The notes under the pieces: model-generated | The model's database searches: none | What the model was told of the DNA's origin: nothing | The model's input: the letters and a program-made list of their open reading frames with translations, nothing else | Program-made: the position numbers and the translations under genes | In this document: positions 7,550 through 13,600 of the stretch, piece after piece | Layout: each line of letters opens with the position of its first letter | Position numbering within the stretch: position 1 is the stretch's first letter | DNA from: Panopea generosa | Lineage: Eukaryota; Mollusca; Bivalvia; Adapedonta; Hiatellidae | Assembly: GCA_029582155.1 (NCBI GenBank) | Contig: CM055897.1 | Coordinates: 7,149,161-7,213,160, forward strand | Length of the DNA: 64,000 nucleotides | Direction: 5' to 3'

Positions 7550-7678
7550 CTAAGGAGAATCACGATTCAACCTATGGAATTGTTTTTATCATTTCAGTTC
7601 CTTAAGCCGAATATTGGCGGAGATGACTGTCAACACTCGCCTGACTGTCAATGTCAGCAGTCACTGGACTGTCTGTCA
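7550..7678 (+). CDS. RTK exon 1 as found: start of Cys-rich ectodomain
   Basis: The exon ends at a strong GTAAGT donor (7679) and is open in one frame, with a Cys-dense peptide [17 protein letters not shown] (four cysteines). Two strong acceptors, TTTATTTCAG ending at 7549 and ATCATTTCAG ending at 7597, lie 48 nt apart and in the same frame, so the exon is 129 or 81 nt. Both forms end in phase 0 and join exon 2 without a frame change. An in-frame ATG at 7574 would give only a short, weak leader, so an upstream exon with the signal peptide is expected. The last 18 nt belong to the first unit of the 77-bp array that fills the start of the next intron. Confidence 0.68.
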
Positions 7679-10600
7679 GTAAGTATAAATACGCTCCTCA
7701 AACATTCATCTTTCCTATGTGATCGATCTTTAGTAAATCACTGGACTGTCTGTCAGTAAGTACAAATACGCTCCTCAAACATTCATCTTTCCTATGTGAT
7801 CGATCTTTAGTAAATCACTGGACTGTCTGTCAGTAAGTACAAATACGCTCCTCAAACATTCATCTTTCCTATGTAATCGATCTTTAGTAAATCACTGGAC
7901 TGTCTGTCAGTAAGTACAAATATGCTCTTCAAACATCCATCTTTCTTATGTAATCGATCTTTAGTAAATCACTGGACTGTCTGTCAGTAAGTACAAATAC
8001 GCTCCTCAAACATTCATCTTTCCTATGTAATCGATCTTTAGTAAATCACTGGACTGTCTGTCAGTAAATACAAATACGCTCCTCAAACATTCATCTTTCC
8101 TATGTGATCGATCTTTAGTAAATCACTGGACTGCCTGTCAGTAAGTACAAATACGCTCCTCAAACATTCATCTTTCCTATGTAATCGATCTTTAGTAAAT
8201 CACTGTACTGTCTGTCAGTAAGTACAAATACGCTCCTCAAACATTCATCTTTCCTATGTGATCGATCTTTAGTAAATCACTAGACTGTCTGTCAGTAAAT
8301 ACAAATACGCTCCTCAAACATTCATCTTTCCTATGTGATCGATCTTTAGTAAATCATTGGACTGCCTGTCAGTAAGTACAAATACGCTCCTCAAACATTC
8401 ATCTTTCCTATGTGATCGATCTTTAGTAAATCACTGGACTGTCTGTCAGTAAGTACAAATACGCTCCTCAAACATTCATCTTTCCTATGTGATCGATCTT
8501 TAGTAAATCACTGGACTGTCTGTCAGTAAGTACAAATACGCTCCTCAAACATTCATCTTTCCTATGTAATCGATCTTTAGTAAATCACTGGACTGTCTGT
8601 CAGTAAGTACAAACACGCTCTTCAAACATTCATCTTTCCTATGTGATCGATCTTTAGTAAATCACTGGACTGCCTGTCAGTAAGTACAAATACACTCCTC
8701 AAACATTCATCTTTCCTATGTAATCGATCTTTAGTAAATCACTGGACTGTCTGTCAGTAAGTACAAATACGCTCCTCAAACATTCATCTTTCCTATGTGA
8801 TCGATCTTTAGTAAATCACTGGACTGTCTGTCAGTAAATACAAATACGCTCCTCAAACATTCATCTTTCCTATGTGATCGATCTTTAGTAAATCACTGGA
8901 CTGCCTGTCAGTAAGTACAAATACGCTCCTCAAACATCCATCTTTCCTATGTGATCGATCTTTAGTAAATCACTGGACTGCCTGTCAGTAAGTACAAATA
9001 CGCTCCTCAAACATCCATCTTTCCTATGTGATCGATCTTTAGTAAATCACTGGACTGTCTGTCAGTAAGTACAAATACGCTCCTCAAACATTCATCTTTC
9101 CTATGTGATCGATCTTTAGTAAATCACTGCACTGCCTGTCAGTAAGTACAAATACGCTCCTCAAACATCCATCTTTCCTATGTGATCGATCTTTAGTAAA
9201 TCACTGGACTGTCTGTCAGTAAGTACAAATACGCTCCTCAAACATCCATCTTTCCTATGTGATCGATCTTAAGTAAATCACTGCACTGCCTGTCAGTAAG
9301 TACAAATACGCCCCTCAAACATTCATCTTTCCTATGTGATCGATCTTAAGTAAATCACTGGACTGTCTGTCAGTAAGTACAAATACGCTCCTCAAACATT
9401 CATCTTTCCTATGTGATCGATCTTTAGTAAATCACTGGACTGCCTGTCAGTAAGTACAAATACGCTCCTCAAACATCCATCTTTCCTATGTGATCGATCT
9501 TTAGTAAATCACTGGACTGCCTGTCAGTCAGTACAAATACGCTCCTCAAACATCCATCTTTCCTATGTGATCGATCTTTAGTAAATCACTGGACTGTCTG
9601 TCAGTAAGTACAAATACGCTCCTCAAACATTCATCTTTCCTATGTGATCGATCTTTAGTAAATCACTGGACTGTCTGCCAGTAAGTACAAATGCGCTCCT
9701 CAAACATCCATCTTTCCTATGTGATCGATCTTTAGTAAATCACTGGACTGTCTGCCAGTAAGTACAAATGCGCTCCTCAAACATCCATCTTTCCTATGTG
9801 ATCGATCTTTAGTAAATCACTGGACTGTCTGCCAGTAAGTACAAATACGCTCCTCAAACATCCATCTTTCCTATGTGATCGATCTTTAGTAAATCACTGG
9901 ACTGTCTGTCAGTAAGTACAAATACGCTCCTCAAACATCCATCTTTCCTATGTGATCGATCTTTAGTAAATCACTGGACTGTCTGCCAGTAAGTACAAAT
10001 ACGCTCCTCAAACATCCATCTTTCCTATGTGATCGATCTTTAGTAAATCACTGGACTGTCTGCCAGTAAGTACAAATACGCTCCTCAAACATCCATCTTT
10101 CCTATGTGATCGATCTTTAGTAAATCACTGGACTGTCTGTCAGTAAGTACAAATACGCTCCTCAAACATCCATCTTTCCTATGTGATCGATCTTTAGTAA
10201 ATCACTGGACTGTCTGCCAGTAAGTACAAATACGCTCCTCAAACATCTATCTTTCCTATGTGATCGATCTTTAGTAAATCACTGGACGGTCTGTCAGTAA
10301 GTACAAATACGCTCCTCAAACATCCATCTTTCCTATGTGATCGATCTTTAGTAAATCACTGGACTGTCTGTCAGTAAGTACAAGTACGCTCCTCAAACAT
10401 TCATCTTTCCTATGTGATCGATCTTTAGTAAATCACTGGACTGTCTGTCAGTAAGTACAAATACGCTCCTCAAACATTCATCTTTCCTATGTGATCTATA
10501 TTTAGTAAATCACTGGACTGTCTGTCAGTAAGTACAAATACGCTCCTCAAACATTCATCTTTCCTATGTGATCGATCTTTAGTAAATCACTGGACTGTCT

Positions 10601-13600
10601 GTCAGTAAGTACAAATACGCTCCTCAAACATTCATCTTTCCTATGTGATCGATCTTTAGTAAATCACTGGACTGTCTGTCAGTAAGTACAAATACGCTCC
10701 TCAAACATTCATCTTTCCTATGTGATCGATCTTTAGTAAATCAATGGACTGTCTGTCAGTAAGTACAAATACGCTCCTCAAACATTCATCTTTCCTATGT
10801 GATCGATCTTTAGTAAATCACTGGACTGTCTGTCAGTAAGTACAAATACGCTCCTCAAACATTCATCTTTCCTATGTGATCTATCTTTAGTAAATCACTG
10901 GACTGCCTGTCAGTAAGTACAAATACGCTCCTCAAACATTCATCTTTCCTATGTAATCGATCTTTAGTAAATCACTGGACTGTTTGTCAGTAAGTACAAA
11001 TACGCTCCTCAAACATTCATCTTTCCTATGTGATCTATCTTTGGTAAATCACTGGACTGCCTGTCAGTAAGTACAAATACGCTCCTCAAACATTCATCTT
11101 TCCTATGTGATCGATCTTTAGTAAATCACTGGACTGCCTGTCAGTAAGTACAAATACGCTCCTCAAACATTCATCTATCAGTAAATATTCGTATGTCTAT
11201 TAAAATGTAGACTCACTGGTATTTTTAAAAACATAATTCTCCAAACAGTCCCTAGCGTATTATTCGCTCATAGTCCGCAGGTGTTTCTATAAAAAAACAA
11301 ATGATTAAAAACGGCTCACGTTCGTTGATAATAATCATGGGCATAACATTTGTATTTTTTTTTTGATGGCAAGTTATTATGGCCACTTGGATGCGTGTTA
11401 CTGTAGACAGATAATATGAATAAATATCTCTCTTTCTCTCACTCTCAAACGTTTACCACAATCCTGATGATGTCCAAATTACAATTTTAGCGAAACAAGC
11501 ACATGCTCACCATGTCCAGTGTGTCCGGGTCTGGGTATTTAACTCGGCATCTTACACCAATATCAGCAATTAAAGGTTGCTTTCTCATTATCCTAATACA
11601 AAATGTAACCTGGATGCAATGGGAGTGGCAAAAGTTCCGATCAATGTCACACGTTGAATAATATACATAGGGAATCAAAACTAGGCCGAGTTCTGTTAAA
11701 TGATCTTAAAAGTTAAAGATTTTGTTTCTCAATGTCGGTCTCTCACGTAGTATGAAAACTGGTGTCCCTCCCTAACTACATGCACCTTCTCAACCCTTAG
11801 TACAATGTTTCTCCCATTTCTCTTCCACCCCTACCGCCGTCTTCCATGTTTCATGTGTAATACAAGTAAGCGGTTTTAATAATAAAATGCACCCGAGTAC
11901 GTTTGTGTATACTATAATTAGTGTATTTTGTCTTTCACCTTACACAAGACCGGCCTGGAAAACTAAAAGCCGGTTTTGGTAGATTATTTTGAAGAAAGGC
12001 CCATTGTTGTCTGGTTTCATTATTTTCTTGCTTGCATCTTTGTACGAAATAATGACATTGGTAGCACGATTTTGTTTAGAACAATCTGATTTACGGTGGT
12101 ATTTCAGAAAAAAACTTACACAATTCTAACAAAAAGGAAAGGAAATAAATACAGAACATGATCTACTTCCCCCCCCCCCCCCCCCCTCCCCCCTCCCCCA
12201 CATTAAACATCAAAGTATAATTATGTACGTGGAGAAGGCTCAAGACTAGACAACATTAATATTTGTTTGAATGTAGCCAGATATTACACCTAGCTATTAT
12301 CTGGTATAGATTAACCGAAATACCATACTAAAACACGTTTGTTTTAGCCATGGCCGCCTATGGTTTGTTGCGATTGTCAGGACCACTTGTTTGTTAAATT
12401 GGTCGTATTTTCAAAAAGTACTATAATTAACATAAAGACCGTGAAATAAACGCAGTTGACAGTGGTGGTGTTTCTAACTAAGCAACCTCGGTTCGAGTCC
12501 GCTTCTCCGCGCGAATGAGCATATAAGGGAGTCTTTCGTTTGAACCGAACTAGAGGGTTCATTGTGCTGGTTTTTCTTTATTCAGCTTAGTTTGTTAGGG
12601 TGAGGGTCCACATGGACTGTACTTTATTCCCTATTTGTAATATGTGTATAAATAACCATTGTCATGTTCATTATTGTGATTATCAATTATCAACCTCTGT
12701 ATGGTTCCAAGGAGTCATATAAATGATGAAAAAATAGGATCACTGTGGCTCATGCGGCAATTTGAGTTATACGATAGAATTTGCTGAAACTCTGCAGTTC
12801 TGCAGGTATCAAGGTTCTGCGTTCATTCTGCATATTCATTTGATGATGTGATATTTTTAATCTATATGTTAATTTGCTGTTTTTGTACATCTAGAGCGAA
12901 CCTTGAATCTTCTCTCCTGTTGGCGTCGAATAACCTACATTGTGTTGGTATGCCGTAAAATCCCATTCATTCATTCGTGTATACATATTAATAAAACTAT
13001 GGCAAGGTGTAGACGGATGATGAAATCCATAAACTTCCATATTCAAGTTTATGCAGACAACGAGGGATAGAAAGAACAATATTGGGAATAAATTCCTGCC
13101 AGCTATTAAGGGAATATAGACATATATATGATATCTACTTTCAATTAACATATAATGGGATATTTATGATTGTAATAGTGAATTGCTTAGGGATTCTTTT
13201 AGCGTCGTGGATCGGTATACAAGCGGAGATCTGAAGGCAAATGTTGACGTAGCACGACGTACAGTAATAAATGTTAGTCACAAATTCATTTATGAAAGGT
13301 CGTGAAATATTTGAACATGATATGTTTAGTGTTACTACCACTCTTATCTTCACGCTTTAATTCCTGAATATTCACAAATTTAGAATTATGTATGTAGCAC
13401 TTGCTAAATCATTTGAATTTGTCGAACTCTTGGGAATTAGGAGCAGTTCTTTGTTTGAATATTTTATACCAATGTCTTGTATAATTTTATTTAGGAGCAG
13501 AAACACCAACAATATTTCGCACCTTTCTGTACACGGGCCTGTTATACGTCCACATGTACTAAAACGTTTATTTGATTGTTGAGTTTGTGTTGGTGAAAAG

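Follow-up and report, generated by a model that had tools for sequence, protein, structure and literature searches.

A 77-bp minisatellite across the probable end of a receptor tyrosine kinase exon multiplies a 5' splice site in Panopea generosa

How is the end of an exon recognized when that end has been copied in tandem some 45 times? The question is raised by a 64,000-nucleotide stretch of the genome of the bivalve Panopea generosa (contig CM055897.1, positions 7,149,161 to 7,213,160 of the forward strand; hereafter the window, whose own numbering is used throughout). Within it, a minisatellite with a 77-bp unit starts inside a probable coding exon of a putative gene for a receptor tyrosine kinase, a cell-surface receptor of animal type, and repeats the last 18 nt of that exon together with its 5' splice site (donor). 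We consider it likely that the array is a neutral minisatellite of the kind named "mirage" in amphioxus, lying across an exon end, and that splicing normally uses the first donor. The array resembles repeats described before, of which it would be a large example, and does not look like a device built for a purpose. The features at the boundary are as follows.

7661..11176, + strand: 77-bp minisatellite, 45 complete units followed by a partial one of 51 nt, without indels (Tandem Repeats Finder and unit listing)
7661..7737, + strand: unit 1, holding the last 18 nt of the probable exon and the probable authentic donor, TCA followed by GTAAGTAT; the sole copy with T at +8
7598..7678, + strand: probable coding exon, 81 nt, phase 0-0, 27 residues (predicted from splice scores, open frame and downstream phase fit)
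7679..7684, + strand: probable authentic 5' splice site, GTAAGT (from the phase-0 junction to the exon at 19454)
7757..7759, + strand: TAA, in frame when the exon extends past donor 2

The array lies where a preliminary description of this DNA had placed it. Tandem Repeats Finder (TRF) reports it as a single array (7661-11176, period 77, 45.7 copies, 97% matches, 0% indels) with a score of 6528, the top among its 53 rows for the window, and walking through it in 77-nt steps gives the same 45 full units and 51-nt remainder. The full units comprise 27 distinct sequences and differ pairwise by 2.7 of 77 positions on average; nine are identical to the consensus. Over the 46 copies the donor hexamer is GTAAGT in 42, GTAAAT in three and GTCAGT in one. 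The "perfect donor" ascribed to most copies thus holds for the intronic hexamer but not for the exonic side, which reads TCA, the exonic consensus of donors being MAG. Nor are the donors equal, as had been supposed, since T at +8 is confined to unit 1 and six copies have C at -3 (CCA/GTAAGT). A DNA search of the species' genome, 1.474 Gb in 39 contigs, reported 46 matches, all of them at the array locus; its counts are lower bounds because the search scores the best candidates only and skips very common words. Units at lags 1-4 show a mean difference of 2.2-2.3, and those at lags 9-15 of 2.7-3.0; this greater likeness of nearby units may reflect local turnover within the array. As regards concerted evolution and the exclusion of edge units from it, unit 1 has a single base found in no other copy, and the same holds for several inner units; the right end of the array is a partial unit.

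Does the first unit contain a genuine exon end? It starts 18 nt ahead of the donor at 7679, within an open frame. In an exon scan that combined hand-typed splice-site weight matrices with a codon score, the exon 7598-7678 has an acceptor score of 4.5 (after 7597) and a donor score of 0.9. The 3' splice site of the exon is good, and its phase 0-0 fits two downstream cysteine-rich exons; both suggest that the exon is probably real and that unit 1 is most likely the authentic boundary, in agreement with the preliminary description. A second good in-frame acceptor (after 7549, score 4.9) would give a longer form, 7550-7678, with 16 additional residues, and is a possible alternative acceptor. The exons with which 7598-7678 would be joined are the following.

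19454..19528, + strand: probable next exon, 75 nt, phase 0-0, 25 residues (scan score 7.4)
22751..22799, + strand: probable exon, phase 0 in and phase 1 out, 16 residues (phase and cysteine search)
25813..26024, + strand: probable extracellular exon (scan and phase)
45398..50270, + strand: five probable extracellular exons (45398-45536, 46263-46537, 47784-48027, 49215-49447 and 50150-50270)
50717..50890, + strand: probable transmembrane exon (hydrophobic stretch, read by eye)
57492..57650, + strand: tyrosine kinase exon, start of the domain
61401..61569, + strand: tyrosine kinase exon

The nine exons from 25813 to 61401 join with consistent phases into a 574-aa protein, which matches the tyrosine kinase family PF07714 (E = 1.4e-19) over the two kinase exons joined; a weak fn3 match in 45398..50270 (PF00041, E = 0.0055) falls below the cut-off of that family. 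Three short exons upstream (7598, 19454 and 22751), with four, four and two cysteines, extend this chain, and all 12 exons share matching phases in a single open frame of 643 aa. In a screen for cysteine-rich exons (acceptor 2.5, donor 0.5, at least two cysteines, 12% cysteine; thresholds fixed after the exons had been seen), the + strand gave five candidates, three of which are these exons in order and phase, and the - strand gave 14 overlapping rows with no comparable chain. When the array-less region was simulated 200 times with a second-order Markov model, under the same post hoc thresholds, no simulation produced a cysteine-rich chain, and eight of the 200 had as many loose candidates as that region itself (two). 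Because both the 81-nt exon and the 75-nt exon that follows are of phase 0-0, skipping either would preserve the frame.

The exon had been labelled exon 1. Two good acceptors stand just ahead of it, as they should for an internal exon, so it is probably not the first, and a better candidate for a signal-peptide first exon lies beyond the window; we therefore regard 7598-7678 as probably exon 2 of the receptor tyrosine kinase gene. The candidate, at L013:3383-3517 and about 14 kb upstream of 7598 (MSLQLLTFCVMLICYTEM...TARCRSRCLAK), has an ATG and a hydrophobic leader, ends in phase 0 and has a donor score of 5.9. It is the sole exon of its class in 37.6 kb minus 15,000 bases not covered, and its significance is moderate: any such exon appeared in 36 of 100 simulations, one ending in phase 0 in 15, and one with phase 0 and two later cysteines in nine. 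The methionine at 7576, as the start of a signal-peptide first exon, is not favoured (hydropathy peak 1.33).

What happens to the frame depends on the donor that is joined. From donor 1 the frame remains open. Splicing from donor 2 would lengthen the exon by 77 nt and change the frame, and the stop falls in the exon 25813-26024. From donors 3, 4, 10 and 46, those that were translated, translation ends at the TAA at 7757, and the other later donors end there as well because they share the same sequence. The statement that any later donor leads to a stop in the second unit is accordingly right about the loss of the frame and, from donor 3 on, about the place of the stop; donor 2 merely shifts the frame.

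If the copies were kept as donors, their donor bases might be expected to vary less than their surroundings. Over the 45 full units, minor bases occupy 4 of 270 cells in the hexamer (1.5%), 42 of 2385 in the 53 bases beyond it (1.8%) and 25 of 810 in the exonic 18 nt, and 55% of the 77 circular 6-nt windows are conserved at least as well as the hexamer. Conservation between copies is thus no higher in the hexamer than elsewhere in the unit, and nothing points to selection for a donor array; this copy-to-copy variation leads us to reject selection maintaining the donors. Unit 1 differs slightly from the other copies in its predicted contact with U1. Its computed U1 duplex is -7.5 kcal/mol, as against -7.0 kcal/mol for copies without T at +8, a base found in 5 of the 12 modelled donors of the gene, unit 1 included. 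Its hexamer is predicted to be more unpaired, a level matched by 0-2 of the 41 other intact copies over seven window sizes; for the wider stretch from -3 to +6, 1 to 15 of the 41 are predicted to be as open. These differences are small, and are computed values only.

Tandem repeats of intron/exon boundaries have been described before. In amphioxus globin and Adh genes they were named mirages and were suggested not to interfere with regular splicing, and boundary repeats are also reported in troponin C, with imperfect ones in PGBD5 (PMC3087553, PMC3902484). Like them, the present array consists of short, similar tandem units over an exon boundary with splice signals, with the authentic boundary, as we take it, at the array edge. 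It starts 18 nt inside the putative exon 7598-7678 and so spans an exon-intron boundary, and GTAAGT recurs in 42 of its 46 copies; given a real exon, the array would fit the mirage definition by structure. It differs in having 46 copies, against 3-6 in BflGb6, which makes it long for its kind, and in belonging to another gene. The human ABCA7 intron 18 variable number tandem repeat (VNTR) also begins at the donor of an exon, exon 18; a product retaining one unit reportedly accounts for 2 +/- 1% of transcripts, and longer arrays go with more skipping of exon 19 (PMC5954066). There, as here, the array starts at the donor of an exon, its units offer further donors and use of the next donor leads to a frameshift. 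The ABCA7 unit, however, is 25 bp long, opens with GT and has no exonic bases, whereas the array studied here, which directly follows the putative exon and includes its donor, has a unit of 77 bp with 18 exonic bases; and the effect of length on exon skipping was measured in ABCA7 and would be a possibility here. Human segmentally duplicated genes carry variable internal tandem repeats at their exon-intron boundaries, from which new introns and alternative splicing reportedly arise (PMC2812944). These too are minisatellite-size repeats across such boundaries, but average four copies of 30 bp, kept in or spliced out of exons, in contrast to one long and mostly intronic array. In an earthworm metallothionein gene, minisatellite-size repeats are reported in a first intron, apparently without reaching over an exon boundary (PMC12783039). 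The preliminary description had held that the later donors must be decoyed unless the first is favoured; no such need is apparent, as the donor is not specially conserved, the amphioxus arrays are reported without interference and the one-unit product of ABCA7 is about 2%, although the ABCA7 array does affect whether the following exon is skipped.

How, then, could the array have arisen? A 77-bp segment across the end of the 81-nt coding exon would have been duplicated, and slippage or unequal exchange would then have amplified it to about 45 copies within the following 11.8-kb intron. The copies would have inherited from that segment both the 18 bases of the exon end and the donor. The first donor would normally be used because it gives the shortest exon with the 3' splice site at 7597 and is met first, and occasional use of later donors would yield transcripts with a frameshift or a stop, which would be discarded. 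Intron gain by tandem duplication is reportedly described in a study of potato. Slippage between short direct repeats is a plausible, if tentative, mode of birth, and the following feature bears on it.

11213..11219, + strand: TCACTGG, a 7-bp direct repeat of the unit start and possible degenerate end copy (weak)

TCACTGG opens the unit inside the exon and recurs 36 nt beyond the array; outside the array the window holds three copies on the + strand, the one at 11213 included, and three on the - strand. The right flank resembles a continuing unit only weakly, since 39 of 1000 shuffles and 10 of 981 segments of the window reach the same similarity, and the left flank shows no match to the unit (939 of 1000 shuffles are as good).

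The window as a whole (1-64000) is very rich in repeats. After removal of eight TRF rows nested in others, the 45 merged rows of the 53 cover 13,043 of 64,000 bases, and 17 larger arrays picked by hand cover 11,192. When the repeats of the window were placed at random, 85-92% of trials had at least one of the 12 donors covered, the mean being about two donors, and the outcome was alike for the 17 hand-picked arrays, the 45 TRF rows and 19 rows with a period of at least 10 and a length of at least 90. As tandem repeats make up a fifth of the window, such overlap is to be expected, and one repeat over an exon end needs no special cause. Another array, 29943-30459 (67-bp unit, 7.7 copies), lies in a later intron and has eight GTAAGT donors scoring 6.0; no acceptor with an open frame was found within 400 nt ahead of its first three donors.

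Several observations weigh against an exon end with its first donor in use. The exonic side of the donor is a weak match, and the site scores 0.9 compared with 4.8 and 5.2 for the donors of the two kinase exons; of the 4273 GTs in the window, counting those in the array, 278 score at least as high. In the exon scan 7598-7678 has 9.6, rank 19 on the + strand, and 19454-19528 has 7.4; on the - strand the highest row, antisense of the 45398 exon, has 18.5, and rows apart from modelled exons reach 15.2. The 22751 exon is the best of seven rows in a search for the missing phase with at least two cysteines, and the codon score favoured another of its frames. The cysteine-rich part has no relative in Pfam or NCBIfam and only two chance-like matches in PDB (E = 1.1 and 1.9), and a paralogue search of the species' own genome up to E = 1, which covered the N-terminal 139 aa of the gene, gave four matches, all of them exons of this same gene; the cysteine-rich part is thus without homology support from Pfam, NCBIfam, PDB or a second genome copy. 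A possible likeness to the anosmin-1 cysteine box and to Torso-type receptors is unconfirmed. The extracellular concept protein, with the 22751 exon left out, had zero matches to PDB sequences up to E = 10, and Rfam at gathering thresholds gave zero matches. As to the choice of donor, an exon ending at donor 2 would be 158 nt long and one ending at donor 3 235 nt, both inside the 49-275 nt range of the remaining modelled exons, so that length alone does not pick donor 1; the six later CCA/GTAAGT copies beat the first donor on the matrix (3.5 vs 0.9); and, of two equal donors, tests often favour the one closer to the 3' end of the intron. As to local turnover, units at lags 25-40 are nearly as alike as near neighbours (difference 2.5-2.8).

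The weak donor, a scan score that lies among false rows and the lack of database relatives would all be explained if there were no exon here, the array being an ordinary intronic or intergenic minisatellite with GTAAGT in its unit and the preceding open frame a matter of chance, and the array at 29943-30459, with its eight stronger donors and no exon found before the first three, also speaks for this. We nevertheless regard this as unlikely in view of the good acceptor, the phase fit with two cysteine-rich exons and with the kinase exons, and the absence of a comparable chain from the 200 simulations, with thresholds set post hoc. Somewhat less doubtful, although still tentative, is the idea, drawn by analogy with ABCA7, that array length tunes the skipping of 19454-19528 or of the repeat-bearing exon. 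Isoforms without part of the cysteine-rich region would then depend on allele length, and both exons, of 81 and 75 nt and phase 0-0 with four cysteines each, could be skipped without loss of frame. The reported correlation of VNTR length with skipping of the exon after the array in ABCA7 (PMC5954066) and the alternative splicing reported from human boundary repeats (PMC2812944) are in line with it; the amphioxus mirages, reported to leave regular splicing undisturbed (PMC3087553, PMC3902484), are not.

A selected decoy, in which about 45 U1 sites hold U1 small nuclear ribonucleoprotein in the intron and so delay splicing or block premature polyadenylation, would set the first donor apart by an extra U1 pair at +8 and a more open structure. 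Unit 1 is indeed the only one of 46 copies with GTAAGTAT and has the stronger computed duplex, and at all seven window sizes 0-2 of 41 copies reach the predicted openness of its hexamer. However, the donor bases are not conserved above the remainder of the unit, the gain in energy is small, the +8 T occurs in just 5 of 12 modelled donors, and the openness from -3 to +6 is shared by 1-15 of 41 copies; we consider such a decoy very improbable indeed. The broader proposal that the donor array is functional, a length-variable U1 decoy setting how frequently the cysteine-rich exons are included while the true donor is told by its extra U1 pair and open fold, appears very improbable as well. A neutral minisatellite across the exon end, with the first donor normally used, is the account that we favour.

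The locus is a natural experiment on 5' splice-site choice, since one acceptor and one exon would face 42 intact hexamer copies at 77-nt steps and each wrong choice would leave a distinct out-of-frame or stop-containing junction. Moreover, the last six codons of the putative receptor exon lie inside an array that may be subject to turnover, so that unequal exchange between its units could alter coding sequence. Should a host outside amphioxus and human be confirmed, the known range of boundary repeats would be widened. A shorter array of 25-bp units (19143-19409, TRF consensus TTCAAACATATTTTCCACCCAAGAT) ends 45 nt ahead of the probable exon 19454-19528, near its 3' splice site.

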